Positions 46,450 to 57,105 of a DNA stretch of 64,000 nucleotides are shown in pieces. The notes below the pieces were generated by a model. That model was not told the DNA's origin and made no database searches. It saw only the letters and a program-made list of their open reading frames with translations. Source of the stretch: Leptospiraceae bacterium (GTDB lineage Bacteria; Spirochaetota; Leptospiria; Leptospirales; Leptonemataceae); contig JAOACE010000008.1 in assembly GCA_026418015.1 (NCBI GenBank), forward strand, positions 248,001 through 312,000. Reading direction: 5' to 3'. The number at the start of each line of letters is the position of its first letter. Position 1 is the first letter of the stretch. A program made the position numbers and the translations under genes.

Positions 46450-47943
46450 TTAATTTTCTTTTATGATTTTGATTTTATCTAATATTATTGGCAAAACATA
46501 GTCTTCAACATTTTGGTTCGAAAATGCTCTTTCGAAGTGATATTTTATTTTATTGTATACGATATCATTATTCAAAAAAGGTAAACCTAACATCGTCCAA
46601 AAATAAAAGGTTTTATCATCTTTAAGGTTGAGTAATGTACTAGAAAATACATCCAACTTCCCTTTGTAAAAATCTTCTATATCGTTAAGCCAATAGGTTT
46701 CGTAAAATTCGTTCAGAGATTCTTTTTGTCGAAAATTCCAACTAGAAAAATCCAATTGATAAAAAATTGGCGTAGATTGAATACTATCGCCATACAAAAA
46801 TTTTAACGAATATTGTTTCTTAAAAAGATCGATAACAGGAATTTGAGGATTTGACGTTAAATAGACATAAAATCGATTGAGCAATAATTCTAATATTTTG
46901 GTTTGTTCCTCTCGATTTCTTTTGTGATTAAAAACCGGTCGATCTTGAATGGTTTTAATAAAATTCAGATCGCGAAAAAAAGTTGGATAATATTCAAATG
47001 CGAAAGAAAAAATGCTTTTACGAATCACCTTCCCCTTTTGGATTTCGAAAGTATATCCAACCTCTTGATTTACCGTTGGAAAATTATACGAATAATGGGA
47101 TTTAACTTGATTTTCGTATTTGCAAAGAGTTTCTAAAGAAAATGGTGCAGAAATATGGAGTAAATCTTTACTTAGTTTTATGGGATAAATCATTCCTTGA
47201 CCTATATAAATTTTGATAAAATTTTTTAAACGATAAATGTTTTTCCACTGGGGATATTCCAGAAACTTTTCATATTCCCATTCGATTTCTTTTTTTCTTT
47301 TTTGGATATACAGACGAACTTTTTCTTTTCTTTTTTGGGTATCTTGCTCATCCGTTGATAAAAAAAATCCTTCTAGTTCGTTTCTAATGGCTAAATAGAT
47401 TCTATTTTCGTATTGCTTTTTTGTAAAGTTTCTGTACAAAAACTCATGATTTTCTTCTTCGTCTGGTATTGCACAATCTTCTTCGATAAAAATGACTTCT
47501 CTGTCGTTAGAAATAAACAACGTCATCACATCCCTTTCGTTTGTTTCGTAGGTAGGGTTAAAAGTTCTACCAAGAAATGTAATTCCCTCTAATTTTAAGG
47601 GTTCTTGATTTTTTAAAATATGGATTTGTGTTTTAAGTAGATAGTGTTTAAAAAGTGGTACCAAAAAACTTAAATTTTCGGGTAGAATAATCTCCGGGTT
47701 TTGCTTTTGATAAATCCAAAACAAAGAATAGGGATCCAGATGATCGCAATGAGGATGAGAAATATAAATAAAATCCAATTTGCCCAAAAAATTATCCGAA
47801 AAATTCCAAGTAGGGTTTCTTTGTAAAAAATCTCCAAAAGCAAAGTCTGTTAACCATACATCGTTTAAAATGCGTACAGTTTTCCTTTGAGAATTTTCGA
47901 GTTCTACGATAAATTGTGAATGTCCTAAAAAAGAGATTTTCAT
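46450..47943 (-). CDS. MBL-fold metallo-hydrolase-like protein
   Basis: A 497-residue protein. The N-terminal half has MKISFLGHSQFIVEL, IYISHPHCDHLDPYSL (the HxHxDH metal motif reads HPHCDH) and LKLEGITFLGRTFNPTYETN, consistent with an MBL fold; a later FIEEDCAIPD may give a metal Asp. The C-terminal half (about 250-497) is not recognised. No signal peptide. The ATG overlaps the stop of the upstream glycosyltransferase gene by one base (TGATG), so the two are translationally coupled and may act on the same glycan or nucleotide-sugar pathway. Substrate unknown. Confidence 0.72.
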   Translation of the reverse strand: MKISFLGHSQFIVELENSQRKTVRILNDVWLTDFAFGDFLQRNPTWNFSDNFLGKLDFIYISHPHCDHLDPYSLFWIYQKQNPEIILPENLSFLVPLFKHYLLKTQIHILKNQEPLKLEGITFLGRTFNPTYETNERDVMTLFISNDREVIFIEEDCAIPDEEENHEFLYRNFTKKQYENRIYLAIRNELEGFFLSTDEQDTQKRKEKVRLYIQKRKKEIEWEYEKFLEYPQWKNIYRLKNFIKIYIGQGMIYPIKLSKDLLHISAPFSLETLCKYENQVKSHYSYNFPTVNQEVGYTFEIQKGKVIRKSIFSFAFEYYPTFFRDLNFIKTIQDRPVFNHKRNREEQTKILELLLNRFYVYLTSNPQIPVIDLFKKQYSLKFLYGDSIQSTPIFYQLDFSSWNFRQKESLNEFYETYWLNDIEDFYKGKLDVFSSTLLNLKDDKTFYFWTMLGLPFLNNDIVYNKIKYHFERAFSNQNVEDYVLPIILDKIKIIKEN

Positions 47944-49100
47944 CAGTTAATTCGTTCCGAAATATTATAAATACTTCTTTCGATAGAAAATTCTTTTATT
48001 ATCTTTTCTTCTGCATATTGTCCCATCTTTGCTCTTAATTTAGGGTTTTCTATTAATTCTTTGATTTTATATGCCATACCTTCGTAATCTTCGTAATCCA
48101 AGATAAAACCTGTAATATTGTTTTGTATTACATCTTCTATCGCGGCTCCCATACCAGATACAGAAGGTAGAGAGGTAAACCCTGCTTCTAAAAGAGTTGT
48201 GCTATAACCAGAGTATTGATCCTTGGGCATACCACCTGGATGATAATATATATCCGAAAAATAGAATAAATATCCCAATTCCCTGTTGTTCAAAAAACCT
48301 GTTAATTTTATATAATTATCAAGATTGTATTGTCGGATTAATTCGTTTAAATAATGATATTCACTACCACTACCAGCGACAAACCAAATCATTTCTTCGA
48401 TGTTGATAAGTTTTTTTAGATGTTCTAATGTATAAACAATTCTATCTAAACGCTTTTTTTTTGTTAGGGGTCCAACAGTTAAGATTTTGTGCTTATTTTT
48501 ATGCTGATTTAGGAAGGATTTAAAATCGTCGCGAATTTTTTGTTTATTATCATTCCAACGAATATATAATCCAAAAGGTATTTTAACAAGTTGCTCTTGC
48601 GAAATCCCTTTAACCAATGCAAGCTCATAAAAATAATTTGTATAGATAAAAATATAGCGAGCATTTTTTAAGAACTTTAAAGTATTTAAGCGAAAAAACG
48701 AAATTGTCTCTAAATCAAAAGGATGTAAAATTACCGAATAGGGTATTTGCAAATTCATGATGGTCTGAAAGAGTAATTTGGTCGTTAAAGAAATATTTCC
48801 TAATAAAATATGTTTTACGTGATGATGTTCTTTAATATAATTTATTAATGCAATGATTTCTTTTAATTTATCTTTTTGGTTAAAAATATTGTTATTCGAA
48901 ACATCAAAGCGATATAAAGTCTTTTCGAAATGATTGTTAAAAAAATTCCATTCGTTTTCATCCACATATATATGATGATCAAAACATATTGTTATGATGT
49001 TATTTTCTTGCCAATTTTTGATAATTCCTACATGAAAGTTTTCTATTCCACCAGGATTGGGACCAAAGAAATCTGTAATAAAAATTATTTTTTCGTTCAT
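47943..49100 (-). CDS. GT4-type glycosyltransferase
   Basis: A 385-residue GT-B protein: DFFGPNPGGIENFHVGIIKN at the N-terminus, HILTVGPLTKKKRLDRIVYT at the nucleotide-sugar domain, and a C-terminal YHPGGMPKDQYSGYSTTLLE then AGFTSLPSVSG. Family members transfer sugars in envelope glycan or glycolipid synthesis. Odd: in the usual E-x7-E pair the second Glu (LLEAG) is kept, but Ser replaces the first (SGYSTTLLE), which may affect donor binding. Coupled to the MBL-fold gene; divergent from the lipoprotein at 49165. Confidence 0.8.
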   Translation of the reverse strand: MNEKIIFITDFFGPNPGGIENFHVGIIKNWQENNIITICFDHHIYVDENEWNFFNNHFEKTLYRFDVSNNNIFNQKDKLKEIIALINYIKEHHHVKHILLGNISLTTKLLFQTIMNLQIPYSVILHPFDLETISFFRLNTLKFLKNARYIFIYTNYFYELALVKGISQEQLVKIPFGLYIRWNDNKQKIRDDFKSFLNQHKNKHKILTVGPLTKKKRLDRIVYTLEHLKKLINIEEMIWFVAGSGSEYHYLNELIRQYNLDNYIKLTGFLNNRELGYLFYFSDIYYHPGGMPKDQYSGYSTTLLEAGFTSLPSVSGMGAAIEDVIQNNITGFILDYEDYEGMAYKIKELIENPKLRAKMGQYAEEKIIKEFSIERSIYNISERIN

Positions 49101-49164: not shown

Positions 49165-52011
49165 ATGAAAAATCAATTACATATTATAATATATAATTTT
49201 TGGGTATTTGCTTATGTTTTGTTAATTTTGTTTTTCGATTGTAAAAAAAACCCAAAAGTTTCTTTTTTGTTAAACAATGATGCAAAATCCAATTCTTTTT
49301 ACGAAATTCGATTTCTTCAAAAAACACCAAAAGAATTAGAAGAACTTCCCTTCGAAACTATCCTATTACCCAAAGAATATAATCAAATTGGCATACCTAC
49401 AAACCAAAGACCCTATTTTTCTTCTGATGGCTGCTTTTATTATCTTGATCCGTTTTATTATTACAACGAGTTTGGATTAGTTGTTAAATACTGCCATAGA
49501 GAAATTCTCGAAAATTTTGATCAATTGAATTATTTAATCAATCATATAGACAACGAACTTAAAATCCCATTAAGTACAAATACGATTAAGGTTCAAAAAA
49601 CGACAATAAATCAACTGGAAAAAGAAAATTATGTATTAATCTATAATACATTTTTGGAAAGTAGTATTTCCGAAAAATTAAAAAATCTTAAAACTTCGTA
49701 TTACTTTTATTCCCAGAAATTTTTTAAAAAACAAGATACTTTTTTACCTAAGCGATTTTACGAAACAGAATATGCAATCCTCATTAAAAACCAAGAAATT
49801 AATTTTTTATACAAAATAGAAAATAAACTAGTAATTATAACAATAAAAGACATAACTTTTTTAAACGATTTATTAAATTTATTTTATAAATTAAATATAA
49901 ATTTTACAACAACTTTTAAAACATCAAAAGATATATATCTTGACATGATTCTATTCAATAAGAAACAACTAGAAAAAATCCGTCTTGCATCATTAGAAAA
50001 TTTTGTAGTATTGTACAATCCCAAAAATCAATCGTATAGTTTTCTTTTTCCTTATAGCTATCTGATATTTGATCTAAACGAAACCGAACATTCCATATCA
50101 AAAAGTGACTTAACAATTTATTTCCAAGATTCTTACAACTTTAAGATAAATCATCAAGGTATAATATCAGAGAATTGGATGTTCTATGATGGTTTTTATA
50201 AACCAAACGAAATCTGTTTATGGAAAGAATGCTCGATAAAGGATTTGGATAGAAGTATATTTACCCTTAAAACAGAAACAAACTGCACATTAGAAGATTT
50301 TGTTTTAACAGAAATCAATCCTTGGGGAATCGTAGAAAACAATCAAACTTCCAGTTATGGTAAATTTATCGAAATCAAGAGCAATCAAAATTGCGATAAC
50401 AACACAAATCAGATTTATTTAAGTATAAACGATGTCCTTATTTCTTTGCCGAAAGAAATCAAAGATATCGTATATTTATTTTCTGCTTCGAATCAATATT
50501 ACTTTTACGAAAATCAAATCGTCAATTTTAATATAACTTCTTTTAAAATAAATCAATCGATAAAATTAAAACGTTTTTTCCCTTTCGAAGAAAGATTGTT
50601 ATTTTCTGGAATTGAGGATCAAAATTCTAGTTTTATCTACGGTGATTCTAAAAACAAAATTTTTAAAAAAATACATTCGATTAAAGTATTGTCGAAGGAT
50701 GAGTGGGAATTTCATTCTACTTTTTGTAAAGGCACACAAAATTGTGAGGATTATGCATTCTCTCCTGGATACGAAGATACACCTAAACAAGATAATTATG
50801 AATGTAGTATCTCCGAATTATTGATTGGTGGTCCATTTGATTCGAACAACAAAAGAATTCCCGAAGATGAATTTATTGAAATAGATTGCCAAAGTAAACA
50901 AAATATTAATAAAAATTTTATTAATATTATTTATAAAAATAATTATAAATATTATTATTTTCCGTCACCAAAAATTCCTAGAAGATTTTTGTTATTACAC
51001 GATAAACCTAAATGCATCCAACCAGAAAATTATATTGTTGTAAGCACTTTAACCATCCCAAATTCAATGAGCGAATATAGAACATCAAACCAAAAAATTC
51101 GCATCGGTAAGTACGAACTAAAACATTTTATTCATACAGATTTTCCAAAATCCCTAAATTACATAAAAAATTATGATTTTCTCTTGCCAACAGATACAAG
51201 CGAAAACTTCCATAATTGCAGAGGGTATGCAACTCCCGAAAAAAATAACAAGCCAATTCCTTATTTATACATAAACGATTATAGCGGACAAACTATTACA
51301 AGTATTTTTGAGCAACCATACCAAGTAAAAATCTATAACGAAAATAATACACTCATAGAAGAACGAATCATATCACCAAACCAAACATTTGGAATTAATA
51401 CGAATTTTTCTTATCCTTATCAAAGAAGAATCTTGAAATTTGTCATCAATAACTCCGTAGAACAATACATAGAAATTTTTAACGAAAAACCTTTGTGTTT
51501 TATAGACTCTTTGTACATCGATTCTCCAGAATCACTTCGTATCTGCTTTCTAGAAGATGGAGACTACAAACTCTACTTAAAAGACAATAGCACAGAAATA
51601 AGGATTTTACCTTATAAAAATAAATTTCTTAATCCCATCATAGAAACTAATTATCTGGATAATCTAGAAAAAAATTATTATAAAACCAAAAAACACGAAT
51701 GTATTGTATTGATTGAACCTACTTCAACAATTAGAGAATTTTATTTAAAGCCACCCAAGGAACCATTTATCGATGTTTATCTTACTACCGCGGATAAAAA
51801 TAAAATTGGCAATGGATTAAGTAATAATGAATACATAGAAATATATACATATATTGATAATCAAAAGATTTCTTTATGTTCGTATGGTTTTCCAGAATTC
51901 AAACTTGCTCCTTTCGAAATAAAAAACCAAGAGCTTATTCTTCATCATCACTATTTTAAAGATAACTCTTTTTATTTTGGCTTGAACTACTTTGACGGAG
52001 AAATCCAATGA
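49165..52011 (+). CDS. large lipoprotein with three lamin-tail-like motifs
   Basis: A 948-residue exported lipoprotein: hydrophobic signal then LFFDCKKNP (Cys26). The mature part is mostly beta and Tyr/Asn-rich. Three segments share the LTD hallmark of an ISE-like strand followed by an acidic FIEI-like strand: FVLTEINPWG ... GKFIEIK (about 377-402), CSISELLIGG ... DEFIEIDC (about 546-575), and VYLTTADKN ... NEYIEIYT (about 874-896). LTDs in bacteria are extracellular binding modules often next to nucleases or PLD-like enzymes. Overlaps the next gene by 4 bases. LTD call is by eye. Confidence 0.6.
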   Translation: MKNQLHIIIYNFWVFAYVLLILFFDCKKNPKVSFLLNNDAKSNSFYEIRFLQKTPKELEELPFETILLPKEYNQIGIPTNQRPYFSSDGCFYYLDPFYYYNEFGLVVKYCHREILENFDQLNYLINHIDNELKIPLSTNTIKVQKTTINQLEKENYVLIYNTFLESSISEKLKNLKTSYYFYSQKFFKKQDTFLPKRFYETEYAILIKNQEINFLYKIENKLVIITIKDITFLNDLLNLFYKLNINFTTTFKTSKDIYLDMILFNKKQLEKIRLASLENFVVLYNPKNQSYSFLFPYSYLIFDLNETEHSISKSDLTIYFQDSYNFKINHQGIISENWMFYDGFYKPNEICLWKECSIKDLDRSIFTLKTETNCTLEDFVLTEINPWGIVENNQTSSYGKFIEIKSNQNCDNNTNQIYLSINDVLISLPKEIKDIVYLFSASNQYYFYENQIVNFNITSFKINQSIKLKRFFPFEERLLFSGIEDQNSSFIYGDSKNKIFKKIHSIKVLSKDEWEFHSTFCKGTQNCEDYAFSPGYEDTPKQDNYECSISELLIGGPFDSNNKRIPEDEFIEIDCQSKQNINKNFINIIYKNNYKYYYFPSPKIPRRFLLLHDKPKCIQPENYIVVSTLTIPNSMSEYRTSNQKIRIGKYELKHFIHTDFPKSLNYIKNYDFLLPTDTSENFHNCRGYATPEKNNKPIPYLYINDYSGQTITSIFEQPYQVKIYNENNTLIEERIISPNQTFGINTNFSYPYQRRILKFVINNSVEQYIEIFNEKPLCFIDSLYIDSPESLRICFLEDGDYKLYLKDNSTEIRILPYKNKFLNPIIETNYLDNLEKNYYKTKKHECIVLIEPTSTIREFYLKPPKEPFIDVYLTTADKNKIGNGLSNNEYIEIYTYIDNQKISLCSYGFPEFKLAPFEIKNQELILHHHYFKDNSFYFGLNYFDGEIQ

Positions 52012-53384
52012 TGCGATATATAATAATTTTTTTATTGAGTTTTTCTAGCATTTGGGGGGAAAATTTTTACTTCCAAACGGGCTTTTTTTTAAACCATATT
52101 CTATCTTATTATAAAGAAGCTCAACAAAAAGAAATTCCTATACAAAATATTTTTAACGTTGGCATTCCATTAAACATAAAATTTTCGAGGGATTATTCCC
52201 TCTTTTCTTTAAATCAGATCTATTGGTTTAACATCGACATAAAAGAAGATAAAGAAGTCTTATACCGAAAAGATAATGACAATAAACCCAAGTTCTATTT
52301 GTACCATAGAGACAATACCTTTGGGGGTATATACTATCAAAACATCTTTCTACTTATTGGTTATATAAACCCATACGAAAGTTTATTCAATCAAACTTCG
52401 TATCCTTTGATTCAATACGTATTTCCTAGTGTAGATTTTCGAATTGATTTAGAAAGTCATATTCTAACAATATCGCCTTATTTTATCTACGATAAAGAAC
52501 AAATCTTTTTTAAAGAAGACGAAGAATACAATAAAATCGTGAATCATTATTATATTCAAGAAATACAAAAAAAAGAAAACAAAAACTTAAACAAAAATTA
52601 TAAATTACATTATACATTTTTAAGTTCCTACATCGATTTTAACTTTGGTTATTATTTTATTGATCAAAAAAATATTTACTCCAACATAAAAAATATTATT
52701 CAAATGAATTTTTATGAATATGCACTTTTACTACATTCGAAGTATTTCTTTTTAAAAGGACATATTTCTAAAAGCGATGGAACATTTTATAAGGCAAATC
52801 AATTCTATAAAATTGATGGTTATAAGTACAAGGTTGGGATACTAATTCGTTATGAGCCTTTTTATTTATTATTAGAAGGAGCAAAAACAACCAAATCCAA
52901 ATGGAATTATTTAACCAATCGATGGGAATATTTTGGATATACCTCGATTTTCGACGAATTTCTTCTAACACCACAATTAAGTACTACTTATAGAATCAAT
53001 CCTCAATACCAAATTTGCTATAACCCAGAAGATATATGCGAAGGTATTTCTTTTATAGATAACGAAAATCATTTTATCTTACCAGCAGATACACTCTATC
53101 TTAAAGCCAAATACAATTTTACTTTTTTAGAATTGATACTTCGTGTAGGATACATAAAAAAAGAAATTATCACCCAAAACCTTTTTGATATAAATAATAT
53201 TCGATTATTCGAAAAAAACGAAGACAAAAAAATTACTCATTACTTAGAACCAGCATTAGAAATTTTGTTTAAATACCAAAAATCAAAGTTTCTTTTATCT
53301 TATTCTGAACTCTACAAAAAACAAGAAAAAAATTATAAATATATTTCTAAAAATTTTCATCTATTTTTTATCTATTATATTTAG
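52008..53384 (+). CDS. exported beta-rich protein, possible outer-membrane barrel
   Basis: A 458-residue protein with signal peptide MRYIIIFLLSFSSIWGEN. The mature region is rich in aromatic-ended amphipathic strands (FYFQTGFFLNHILSYY, YSLFSLNQIYWFNIDI, YKVGILIRYEPFYLLLEGA, LSTTYRINPQYQICYNPE) spaced like beta-barrel hairpins, and it ends in an aromatic HLFFIYYI, as porins end. This suggests, but does not prove, an outer-membrane barrel. It overlaps the LTD lipoprotein gene by ATGATG and precedes the PLD lipoprotein by 8 bases. No homologous family recognised. Confidence 0.5.
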   Translation: MMRYIIIFLLSFSSIWGENFYFQTGFFLNHILSYYKEAQQKEIPIQNIFNVGIPLNIKFSRDYSLFSLNQIYWFNIDIKEDKEVLYRKDNDNKPKFYLYHRDNTFGGIYYQNIFLLIGYINPYESLFNQTSYPLIQYVFPSVDFRIDLESHILTISPYFIYDKEQIFFKEDEEYNKIVNHYYIQEIQKKENKNLNKNYKLHYTFLSSYIDFNFGYYFIDQKNIYSNIKNIIQMNFYEYALLLHSKYFFLKGHISKSDGTFYKANQFYKIDGYKYKVGILIRYEPFYLLLEGAKTTKSKWNYLTNRWEYFGYTSIFDEFLLTPQLSTTYRINPQYQICYNPEDICEGISFIDNENHFILPADTLYLKAKYNFTFLELILRVGYIKKEIITQNLFDINNIRLFEKNEDKKITHYLEPALEILFKYQKSKFLLSYSELYKKQEKNYKYISKNFHLFFIYYI

Positions 53385-53392
53385 GAGGTTTT

Positions 53393-55084
53393 ATGAAGTT
53401 TATTTTAATAATCTTAATAATATTTTTGTCCTGTAAGAAACCCGATCCATTAGACGTTTTTAACAATCTCTTATTGCAAAATAAAAGAATTGAGTATTAT
53501 TTTTCTAACCCTTATGATAGCATAAACAACGATAAAATCAAAAAAGAAATTCTTGATGTTATCTTAAATGCAAAAGAGAATCTATATATATTCTGCTACG
53601 AACTACAAGAAGAAGATATCGTTCATGCTATTTATGAACAATATAAGAAAGGTATAAAAATCAAAATTATTGGTTCCAAAGATCAAACTTATGATTTGTT
53701 AAATCATTATAAAATTCCCTTCGAAATAAGACAAGATACCCAATTGCAACACATCAAAATGATTCTTTCGGATTATACAACCCTATTTGCTGGAACAGGA
53801 AACTTTACAAAAAGTGATATTTATTATAATTCTAATTTATTTTTTAAAATTCCTCTACCCAAAGAAATGGGAAATCTTATCATAAAAAAATTTTATTATT
53901 TGGACTACCCCTATCCTATTATAATTTATAGCGATTTTTACAAAATCAAAATTCTTCAATCACCAGAAAATGGTAAAGAAATCCAAAGTATTATCAATAA
54001 TTCCATTTTAAATGCAAAACAAAATATTTCTTTTTATCTATATAGTTTTTACGATCCCACTATAATGAATAGTTTGGTTTATAAGAACGAAAATTCTTGG
54101 ATGATTTCTGGTATAGTAGACAAAACTACATTAGATAACAATCCATTTTTGGAAGAAGTCATCAACTACATAAATATTTATAAAGAGAATTTTGATTTTC
54201 AGTTCCAAGATAATCATGCCGTTAATCGAGGAGGAAAATTGCACCATAAAACATTCTTAATCGATGATTTTCTATTAACAGGTTCATATAATATGAGTAT
54301 CAATGCACGCGACAATAATGCAGAAATCTTTTTTTGGATAGAAGATCCTTTAAATATTTCTATGATCAAGAAAAAATATAGAGAACTTTATCAATATGCA
54401 TCGATCACTGTGCCAAAACAAAAAATAATGATTATAAACGATTCTTATATAGACAATACATTTTGTCAGGAAACCGCAGGTAATAATTTTTATCTACAAG
54501 GCAAAAATGCCTTTTTCTTTGTAGAATATATAAAAAGCGCCTCTTGTCCCAACCGAAGTTCTTATTCTTCTGGTATTGTGTCTAGTTCGAGTGATGGATT
54601 TATCTATATAATAGGAGATAGCTTAAAAGATTTTAATTCCCAAAAATTGCATAGAAAAAACCCAAATTTTTTGGGTTGTAATGATGTCTTTTGTGATCCT
54701 TGCGAAATCAATGATTGTAATTTTATAAATTTATTTAACATAAATTTTAATACAAGATTCTTTATCTTAAAAGAAGATTTATCTTTGGAGAATCCTTTTT
54801 ATTTATGGGATGGAACAAAATTTTTAAAAATCAAAATCGATTCAAAACAATTCATAGACGATAAATATTATTATTTCTTTAGAGTCGTGAACTTAAACGA
54901 TACACCATACACCAATACAGTTAGTAGTGGTATTCTGTTCTATACTTCTAAAAACCAATTATTATTTTCCTGTTTTTATAAGACAGAACTAAGAAATAAC
55001 CTAAAAACCTTTTTAAATTTAATGGAATGGTATAACGAAAAATACTTGTATTTATTGAATCAATGCACAAAAATTACCTTATAA
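53393..55084 (+). CDS. phospholipase D-like lipoprotein with two HKD motifs
   Basis: A 563-residue lipoprotein: signal ending FLSCKKPD (Cys14). First PLD domain has QHIKMILSDYTTLFAGTGNF (H-x-K-x4-D); second has KLHHKTFLIDDFLLTGSYNM with the HxK...GSxN signature. Two HKD motifs in one chain make a complete PLD active site for phosphodiesterase or phosphatidyl transfer. The C-terminal ~190 residues, with cysteines at CNDVFCDPCEINDC, form an extra exported domain I do not recognise. Preceded by GGAGG. Sits between the barrel-like protein and another exported protein; it probably acts in the periplasm or on the surface. Substrate unknown. Confidence 0.83.
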   Translation: MKFILIILIIFLSCKKPDPLDVFNNLLLQNKRIEYYFSNPYDSINNDKIKKEILDVILNAKENLYIFCYELQEEDIVHAIYEQYKKGIKIKIIGSKDQTYDLLNHYKIPFEIRQDTQLQHIKMILSDYTTLFAGTGNFTKSDIYYNSNLFFKIPLPKEMGNLIIKKFYYLDYPYPIIIYSDFYKIKILQSPENGKEIQSIINNSILNAKQNISFYLYSFYDPTIMNSLVYKNENSWMISGIVDKTTLDNNPFLEEVINYINIYKENFDFQFQDNHAVNRGGKLHHKTFLIDDFLLTGSYNMSINARDNNAEIFFWIEDPLNISMIKKKYRELYQYASITVPKQKIMIINDSYIDNTFCQETAGNNFYLQGKNAFFFVEYIKSASCPNRSSYSSGIVSSSSDGFIYIIGDSLKDFNSQKLHRKNPNFLGCNDVFCDPCEINDCNFINLFNINFNTRFFILKEDLSLENPFYLWDGTKFLKIKIDSKQFIDDKYYYFFRVVNLNDTPYTNTVSSGILFYTSKNQLLFSCFYKTELRNNLKTFLNLMEWYNEKYLYLLNQCTKITL

Positions 55085-55797
55085 TGAAAAAACTATTATT
55101 GATTTTTATTATACTTTTAAAACCAGTTTTTTCGGATGATTTTATTCATATATATTATTATCCATTAAAATATGATTCCAACAAAATCGATACGATAAAA
55201 AAATATTATAATATATTCTACGAACACGAAAAATCTATACATAGCAAATCCAAAGAACAGAGTATTTTTATTTTAAATTATTTTCCCAAAGAAGAACCCA
55301 TCGATAATTATTTATATATTCTAAAAAATTTTTATTATGATTTTATGAATTATTTTGATCAAGAAGAAGAATCACTTAAAGAATTTAAAGAAAAACTTTA
55401 TTGTTTTAATTGTTTAGAAAAAAATAGTTATATATATAATAAATTTAAACCTATCTTTCTTAATAACATCAAAATGATGACTCTATTTTTTAAAAATTGT
55501 AAAATCATCGAAGAAGAACTAAAAAAATTCTTGTACTTAAACGAAGATACGAATTTATGGATTTTCGCATTCCCCGAAGATAATTGCGAATTAAATATAT
55601 TAAAAGAATTTTATAAAGAAAAAAATATATTTATTATACTAACTATGAAAGAGAATCAAGAATTTTATAAGCAAGGAAAAAATATATTTTTTTGTAAAGT
55701 ATACAATAATATATGTTACATAAAGATAAAATTTAGAGAAGGAGAGCTTTTAAACCTCCATCAATTTTTTATTAAAATAGATCAATATTATGAATAA
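55084..55797 (+). CDS. exported protein of unknown function
   Basis: About 237 residues from ATG 55084, which overlaps the PLD stop as TAATG; an earlier in-frame start at 55063 would only add seven polar residues before the signal. Signal MKKLLLIFIILLKPVFSD is followed by a mature part rich in Tyr, Phe, Lys, Asn and Glu, mostly helical, with five cysteines in LYCFNCLEKN, FFKNCKI and EDNCELN that might pair. No known domain. Fourth exported gene of the operon; it overlaps coaE by 8 bases. Confidence 0.6.
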   Translation: MKKLLLIFIILLKPVFSDDFIHIYYYPLKYDSNKIDTIKKYYNIFYEHEKSIHSKSKEQSIFILNYFPKEEPIDNYLYILKNFYYDFMNYFDQEEESLKEFKEKLYCFNCLEKNSYIYNKFKPIFLNNIKMMTLFFKNCKIIEEELKKFLYLNEDTNLWIFAFPEDNCELNILKEFYKEKNIFIILTMKENQEFYKQGKNIFFCKVYNNICYIKIKFREGELLNLHQFFIKIDQYYE

Positions 55798-56467
55798 TTT
55801 AAAAAATTTATTTAATTTAGAATACGAAAAAGTTCCCGAAAAATTTCCTTGGAAAAAAAATTCCTATCTTATAGGGTTAACTGGAACACTTGCAGCTGGA
55901 AAAAGTACTGCTTCGGAAATTTTTAAAAATCATCATTGTACTGTATTAAATGCTGATGATATTGCAAAAAAAATGTATTTAAGACCAGAAATAAAAAAAA
56001 TCATTATTGACAAATTTGGTGAAGAAAGTTATGATGGTACAGATAAAGTCAATTTAAAATATTTATCTAAAAAAATATTTAGTAAAAAAGAAAATGTCCA
56101 ATGGATTAACCATCTTTTACATCCATTGGTAAAAGAAGAAATAAAACAATATTTAAAAAATGCAAAGACGGGGGAAATCATTCTTTATGATGTGCCATTA
56201 TTGTTTGAAAGTAATTCTCACAAAGAAAATGATTATGATCTTATCATTGTTGTTGATGCTCCAATCGAATTGAGGAAAAAAAGAGCTTTTGAAAGAAACC
56301 AATGGACAGAAGAAGAATTTATGTTAAGAGAAAAGAATCAAATGGATCCTTCTACAAAAAAAATGCTTGCAAATTGTGTTTTATGGAACGATCAAGATAA
56401 AGAAACACTTGAAAAAAAGATATTATATTTAATAGAACAAATACAAAAAAATCAACCCAAAAGATGA
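55790..56467 (+). CDS. coaE: dephospho-CoA kinase
   Basis: Phosphorylates dephospho-CoA to coenzyme A, the final step of the pathway. Walker A LIGLTGTLAAGKSTASEIF, then LNADDIAKKMY, HPLVKEEIKQYL, LYDVPLLFES and the C-terminal RAFERNQWTEEEFMLREKNQ are all family blocks. Length 225 includes about 20 extra N-terminal residues before the P-loop strand. It overlaps the exported-protein gene by 8 bases and precedes the SPOR gene by 8. Its place in an envelope operon is probably incidental. Confidence 0.92.
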   Translation: MNNLKNLFNLEYEKVPEKFPWKKNSYLIGLTGTLAAGKSTASEIFKNHHCTVLNADDIAKKMYLRPEIKKIIIDKFGEESYDGTDKVNLKYLSKKIFSKKENVQWINHLLHPLVKEEIKQYLKNAKTGEIILYDVPLLFESNSHKENDYDLIIVVDAPIELRKKRAFERNQWTEEEFMLREKNQMDPSTKKMLANCVLWNDQDKETLEKKILYLIEQIQKNQPKR

Positions 56468-56475
56468 GGTAAAAT

Positions 56476-57105
56476 ATGAAAAAGAGAATATTTTATATAA
56501 TTCATTTAGACAAAGAAAGAATTATATTACTTTCGACAATTTTTATCGCTGTTGTATTAACCAGCTTTACGATTGGATATAAAATAGGTAAAGACAAAAC
56601 GATTCAAGATAGTAATTTAGTTCAGATAGAATCTCCAGTAATACCTAAAATATCTAAACCAGAAGAAATAAAACAAGAACCCAAAGAAGAAAAACCTACC
56701 ATTTCTATTGAAGAACTAAAAAAAGCAGAAAAGATCTCTTCGGTCACAAGAATCATGAAAGAAAATACAATAGATAATTCTCCTACAACATCACAAATCA
56801 TAGAAAACGACAAAGAAATCGAACACCCCAAAAAAGAAGAATGGAAAGTTTACAAAAAACCCTTCTCTAACGAAAAAAAAGAAGAGAAATATTTAATACA
56901 AGTATCTGCTCATAAAAGTGAAGAGGATGCACAAAAACTAAAAAACAAACTCGAAGAAAATGGAATTAAAGCATATTATAAGAAAAAAAATAAATACTAT
57001 GTTCTATATACTACCTCTAATTCGAGCGAAGAATCGAAAGAAATCAAAGAAAAATTAAAAAGCCTTAACATAGAAAAAGTTGTTATAAAAAAATTAAATA
57101 ATTAA
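56476..57105 (+). CDS. SPOR-domain membrane protein
   Basis: A 209-residue bitopic protein: short cytoplasmic start, one transmembrane helix at about 17-37 (IILLSTIFIAVVLTSFTIGY), a Pro/Glu/Lys-rich linker, and a C-terminal SPOR domain YLIQVSAHKSEEDAQKLKNK, then LEENGIKAYYKKKNKYYVLY. SPOR domains bind denuded peptidoglycan at division sites, so this may be a septal or wall-associated protein. A GAGGTAAA site precedes the ATG. Last gene of the operon begun at 49165. Confidence 0.85.
   Translation: MKKRIFYIIHLDKERIILLSTIFIAVVLTSFTIGYKIGKDKTIQDSNLVQIESPVIPKISKPEEIKQEPKEEKPTISIEELKKAEKISSVTRIMKENTIDNSPTTSQIIENDKEIEHPKKEEWKVYKKPFSNEKKEEKYLIQVSAHKSEEDAQKLKNKLEENGIKAYYKKKNKYYVLYTTSNSSEESKEIKEKLKSLNIEKVVIKKLNN

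Follow-up and report, generated by a model that had tools for sequence, protein, structure and literature searches.

Organization of the gene cluster

In the window, which is the whole 64,000-nucleotide stretch of DNA analyzed here, four open reading frames for exported proteins lie head to tail on the same strand with coupled starts, occupying positions 49165-55797 (Table 1). At the gene 1/gene 2 junction, the ATGATG at 52008-52013 overlaps the TGA stop codon at 52009-52011; genes 2 and 3 are separated by an 8-base gap with a TAGGAGG Shine-Dalgarno (TAG-GAGGTTTT-ATG); and genes 3 and 4 meet in a TAATG at 55082-55086. All three junctions were read directly, confirming an earlier sequence-only reading that had described four exported, translationally coupled products. 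Gene 4 has two possible starts, as the listed open reading frame begins at an ATG at 55063 (244 aa) and the ATG at 55084, within the TAATG, gives a product of 237 aa with a normal signal peptide.

Table 1 Coordinates of the genes, domains and motifs at the locus (window positions)
Feature	Position	Strand	Description
Gene 1	49165..52011	+	948-aa lipoprotein: PLD-fold-like N-terminal domain and four LTD-like domains
Lipobox cysteine C26 (gene 1)	49240..49242	+	Invariant in 23/23 orthologs; lipidation predicted
PLD-fold-like domain without HKD motifs, tentative (residues ~80-250)	49402..49914	+	Fold and weak profile matches
LTD-like domain A, degenerate (residues ~255-360)	49927..50244	+	Profile match to LTD C, E 1.2e-6
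LTD B (residues 367-490)	50263..50634	+	Lamin B1 Z 6.9; profile match to LTD C, E 9.4e-8
LTD C (residues ~540-660)	50782..51144	+	PF00932 E 9.9e-5 on same-genus ortholog (G002)
Ig-like beta-sandwich (residues 695-775)	51247..51489	+	Fold match, Z up to 8.5
LTD D (residues 773-918)	51481..51918	+	Lamin A/C Z 7.7; PF00932 E 8.3e-10 on L050 ortholog
Gene 2	52008..53384	+	458-aa predicted outer-membrane barrel, 18-strand OprD/AlgE-like
Gene 3	53393..55084	+	563-aa PLD-superfamily lipoprotein, two HKD motifs, nuclease-like
HKD motif 1, H120-K122-D127 ... G134-T-G-N137	53750..53803	+	Invariant
HKD motif 2, H284-K286-D291 ... G297-S-x-N300	54242..54292	+	Invariant
PLD C-terminal region (residues 345-563)	54425..55081	+	Conserved cysteines, no family found
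Gene 4	55084..55797	+	237-aa exported protein, degenerate UshA-like family
coaE (dephospho-CoA kinase)	55790..56467	+	Overlaps gene 4 by 8 bases

The same reading had called the cluster a four-gene operon, which is too short. As coaE starts inside gene 4 and a SPOR gene comes next, beginning at 56476, the transcription unit probably runs on into both and is open at its 3' side. The order PLD, gene 4, coaE, SPOR, a 215-aa protein and ppk recurs across family f1. Scans for promoters and terminators gave signals no better than those in shuffled sequence, and no RNA families were found in the window. Divergently upstream of gene 1, the minus strand at 46450-49100 encodes a metallo-beta-lactamase-fold protein and a family-4 glycosyltransferase.

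Predicted functions of the four products

The gene 3 product scores 79.6 bits in PF13091 against a cut-off of 27, over two stretches, and both HKD motifs with their GTGN/GSxN residues are invariant in all 27 orthologs, as is the lipobox cysteine C14, at which lipidation is predicted; its earlier description as a two-HKD PLD lipoprotein is therefore upheld. In a profile search of the PDB, the best solved relatives were nucleases, namely NucT (6ehi, 1.1e-19), MitoPLD (1.7e-19) and Nuc (7.6e-18). Among NCBIfam models, those for NucT match 27 of the 27 orthologs (best 3.8e-24), and that for cardiolipin synthase matches 14 of them (best 1.4e-8). Judged by these profiles, gene 3 appears nearer to nucleases than to lipid enzymes, although the PLD fold does not in itself reveal the substrate. 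The protein is not a NucT equivalog (PRK13912, 42.6 bits against a curated cut-off of 297), and it does not fall in a ClsO-like class, as its nearest relatives are not cardiolipin synthases. The C-terminal 220 residues gave no match to LTD profiles, and an LTD origin for this region was rejected. A role in defence was likewise rejected, as matches to DrmC and DpdK profiles reflect the common PLD domain and the proteins are exported. Small PLD proteins related to gene 3 (365-430 aa) also occur in Chloroflexota MAGs (L101-L106, L109 and L113); in L101, L102, L105, L109 and L113 the PLD gene is followed by a large open reading frame of 830-1070 aa with a similar N-terminus.

For gene 2, the AlphaFold2 model has about 18 strands (pLDDT 77.7, pTM 0.80) that form a closed barrel spanning residues 17-458, and the start of the product resembles a signal peptide. 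Its neighbours in the PDB are OprD/Occ porins and AlgE at Z 21-23.6, with the top rows tied, and the best structural match has Z 23.6 and rmsd 4.3 over 344 aligned residues (fold-search E 2.5e-11). The barrel has no Pfam match. The model thus gives substance to what had been proposed as a possible outer-membrane barrel, and its fold is of the 18-strand OprD/AlgE type, a predicted fold class that implies no sequence membership in either family. Gene 2 differs from OprD/Occ porins and AlgE in having only 6-12% sequence identity to them and in being coupled to two lipoproteins. By a rough strand-parity count, the net charge of the barrel interior is zero or above in 20 of 22 orthologs; this mildly positive interior is at most suggestive of anions.

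The structural model of gene 1 (pLDDT 72, pTM 0.49) contains lamin-type folds matching at Z 6.9-7.7. PF00932 matches 7 of 23 orthologs (best 8.3e-10) and exceeds the Pfam cut-off of 34.3 bits on those in L050 (39.5) and L051 (36.8); the window protein itself has no Pfam LTD match. Backed by Pfam on orthologs together with the predicted fold, the assignment of gene 1 as a lamin tail domain (LTD) protein agrees with the sequence-only reading, with the correction that four LTD-like domains take the place of the three lamin-tail-like motifs counted there; the third of those motifs (about residues 869-895) is probably the end of the fourth LTD. The N-terminal part (residues 42-292) resembles PLD proteins at Z of about 7, below the safe level of the tool, with vaccinia F13 (Z 7.0) and PLD3 (Z 6.9) as fold neighbours and NucT at prob 0.92 and E 0.056. 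A sub-profile of this part matches PLD weakly (hhalign E 0.047, equalled by 1 of 100 shuffles), and direct comparison of the whole-length gene 1 profile with the gene 3 PLD profile gave no match. A dead-PLD plus LTD architecture is nevertheless plausible in this lineage, as an LTD protein of a paralogous module (L163:7936-10818) joins a PLDc_2 trace without any HKD to three clear LTDs.

Homologs of gene 4 lie near the PLD gene in other f1 genomes, and the family profile matches the N-terminal phosphoesterase domain of UshA (E 3.1e-10). Unlike UshA, the family has degenerate metal-binding motifs, with TNDHHG changed to TSDFAG or similar and GNHE lost, and intact motifs were not found in the family alignments. 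Because these motifs are degenerate, gene 4 probably represents a non-catalytic relative of 5'-nucleotidases. Few members of the family are as reduced as the window copy: the profile built from its genus aligns with the others only across ~55 residues at the C-terminus.

Conservation across the order

Of the 30 genomes of the order, 27 yielded a full-length ortholog of gene 3 in a PLD profile search. In five of these the region is cut by contig ends, and they were left out of the count of linked genes; in all 22 genomes whose contigs span the region, the trio of LTD lipoprotein, barrel and PLD lipoprotein is intact. The barrel gene lies directly upstream of the PLD gene and the LTD gene upstream of the barrel gene, the median gap being -4 bases at both junctions (n = 22). 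This conservation is far beyond chance, and the synteny check proposed with the sequence-only reading gave a positive outcome throughout the order. Outside the genus, identity falls to 10-16% for the barrel and 15-21% for the LTD protein and the trio still holds together, so the linkage has outlasted most of the sequence similarity. The class-level genome set has no member recognizable as Leptospira, and a pattern scan returned no Leptospira genome, a result that does not prove absence from that genus. Carriage as mobile or plasmid cargo was rejected, as the gene 3 PLD had no tblastn match in 72,556 plasmids.

Several genomes of the order carry a second module, composed of an LTD lipoprotein, a barrel and a PLD-LTD fusion of about 930-1060 aa, so that PLD and LTD also occur fused. 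In two class-level relatives, putatively Turneriella-like and belonging to sister families, genes for a barrel, an LTD lipoprotein, an HKD-less PLD-like protein, a PLD-LTD protein, a protein of ~335 aa and Endonuclease I are contiguous on one strand (L160:3118-11828 and L161:2248-11519; PF04231, 7.6e-44 and 3.6e-38). Endonuclease I is a secreted DNase family. In three further genomes (G035, G039 and G042), its gene and a PLD match share a strand and are about 3 kb apart, and overall Endonuclease I adjoins the paralogous module in at least five genomes. No other observation points as strongly to the substrate as this position, although it concerns the paralogous module and not the one in the window; the window genome also has an Endonuclease I gene, which is unlinked to the module.

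A proposed role in degrading extracellular nucleic acid

We consider it somewhat probable that the module forms a machine in the outer membrane by which extracellular nucleic acid is degraded, probably for scavenging. The two lipoproteins and the barrel would sit in the outer membrane, exposed at the surface and assembled in a complex, where gene 1, with four LTD-like domains and a PLD-like domain lacking catalytic residues, may bind and hold DNA or RNA. Gene 3 would cut it by the phospho-histidine route typical of PLD-superfamily enzymes, the barrel of gene 2 may pass the fragments inward, and gene 4, as a dead 5'-nucleotidase relative, could bind nucleotides or assist in the periplasm. The computed elements of this proposal are gene content, synteny, the intact HKD motifs, the nuclease-type profile, the LTD and barrel folds, and Endonuclease I by the paralogous module. 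The sequence-only reading had envisaged a complex for binding and cutting either a phosphodiester polymer or phospholipid; the polymer part would stand in outline, narrowed to nucleic acid, and the phospholipid part is disfavoured by the profile matches and by the Endonuclease I of the paralogous module.

The nucleic-acid reading draws on the fact that bacterial LTDs repeatedly accompany extracellular nucleases and phosphoesterases, including ExeM (PMC6085458) and the DNA-degradation loci of Izemoplasmatales (PMC8289736), as well as ShfP (PMC11488536) and a haloarchaeal ComA-like protein (PMC5118699). ExeM with its LTD deleted kept considerable activity (PMC6085458), so that the LTD is only a candidate for the binding role. 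Also against the nucleic-acid reading, the window module has no linked nuclease or nucleotide gene other than the degenerate gene 4, and the barrel resembles an exporter, AlgE, as well. A CNT nucleoside transporter is present in all four genomes of the genus, including that of the window, which also has purF and its own cardiolipin synthase; none of these three decides the substrate. Purine auxotrophy as a driver was rejected, as purF is present and gives no evident sign that the organism depends on external purines.

The main rival to nucleic-acid degradation is surface phospholipid remodelling, with gene 3 as an outer-membrane PLD-family lipid enzyme, the LTD protein as a membrane tether and the barrel in a structural or lipid role. 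It has a precedent in Acinetobacter ClsO, a surface lipoprotein with two HKD motifs that acts as the main cardiolipin synthase in its host (PMC12846801), and LTDs have been proposed to direct proteins to membranes (PMC6085458). We regard it as unlikely, as the match of 14 orthologs to the cardiolipin synthase model is weak and nuclease models match all 27 with much better scores, Endonuclease I sits with the paralogous module, and cardiolipin synthase is encoded separately in the window genome (G000:C26, E 9.7e-68), although ClsO too coexists with others. Rather improbable is a role in a surface polysaccharide with phosphodiester links, in which an AlgE-like barrel would export the polymer, the PLD protein cut or transfer it, and the LTD protein hold it. 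The alginate exporter is among the best structural neighbours of the barrel, but OprD-type uptake porins score as AlgE does (Z within 1); most genomes of family f1 have the divergent glycosyltransferase gene in the same place, but it was not observed in family f2. According to one proposal, LTDs bind DNA or surface polysaccharides of analogous chemistry (PMC11488536), yet the module is without a polymerase, synthase or flippase, and the links to Endonuclease I and to UshA are indicative of nucleotides.

Natural transformation would have the nuclease and an LTD receptor bind and nick incoming DNA that the barrel then admits. In H. pylori, NucT has been tied to transformation in addition to purine salvage, but the effect of nucT mutations on transformation is only mild (PMC5714352); in addition, no competence gene was seen among the neighbours of the module, and a barrel of OprD size would not obviously pass duplex DNA, which leaves this explanation very improbable. 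Within the preferred reading of nucleic-acid degradation, a more elaborate and rather doubtful version is a nucleic-acid-utilization machine of the spirochaete outer membrane with Sus-like logic, in which a dead-PLD/LTD holder, a PLD nuclease, a dedicated channel and, for nucleotide binding, a dead 5'-nucleotidase subunit would be accompanied by a second, PLD-LTD-fused version beside Endonuclease I.

Relation to known systems

Gene 3 resembles Helicobacter pylori NucT, an exported membrane-associated PLD-superfamily protein with the HxK(x)4D(x)6GSxN signature that serves in purine salvage. NucT is a small, single-HKD, dimerizing protein without an LTD partner, barrel or operon, whereas gene 3 carries both HKDs on a single chain and has, in addition, a lipobox and a C-terminal region of 220 residues. 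ExeM and other LTD-bearing nucleases of Shewanella and Vibrio, together with the Izemoplasmatales loci, link an LTD to an exported nuclease that degrades extracellular DNA, but the catalytic domain of ExeM is an EEP domain with an OB-fold region and not a PLD domain, and the accessible portions of these reports describe no barrel or dead-enzyme subunit (PMC6085458, PMC8289736). A Pfam search found no EEP catalytic domain in the four module proteins, which are thus not of the ExeM type. Like gene 3, ClsO is an outer-membrane PLD-superfamily lipoprotein with two HKD motifs; it is most similar to E. coli ClsC, with no LTD or barrel partner described in the available part of its report (PMC12846801), and the gene 3 family is nearer to nucleases.

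The single parts are therefore known, and their combination and order-wide conservation were not found described in the searchable literature, where no paper combined "lamin tail domain" with "Leptospira"; the earlier remark that no described system has this composition holds to that extent. If the proposed role is correct, genes that nearly all sampled members of an environmental spirochaete order carry as a block would gain a function, LTDs would be seen acting as partners of a PLD nuclease, and DNA would suggest itself as a nutrient of these spirochaetes. The module would also offer a concrete system in which to ask what bacterial LTDs bind, a question that the literature leaves open.

Two further arrangements were observed around the paralogous genes. 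Very LTD-rich large proteins, with a frame of up to 1554 aa, adjoin second modules (G006:C2:55533-58718, G005:C20:52474-54540 and G007:C1:1942323-1944472). In one genome (L066:1752-8393), the neighbours of a PLD-LTD gene are a TonB receptor and a lipoprotein that has the C-terminal domain of 5'-nucleotidase alone, an arrangement that speaks for the nucleic-acid reading.
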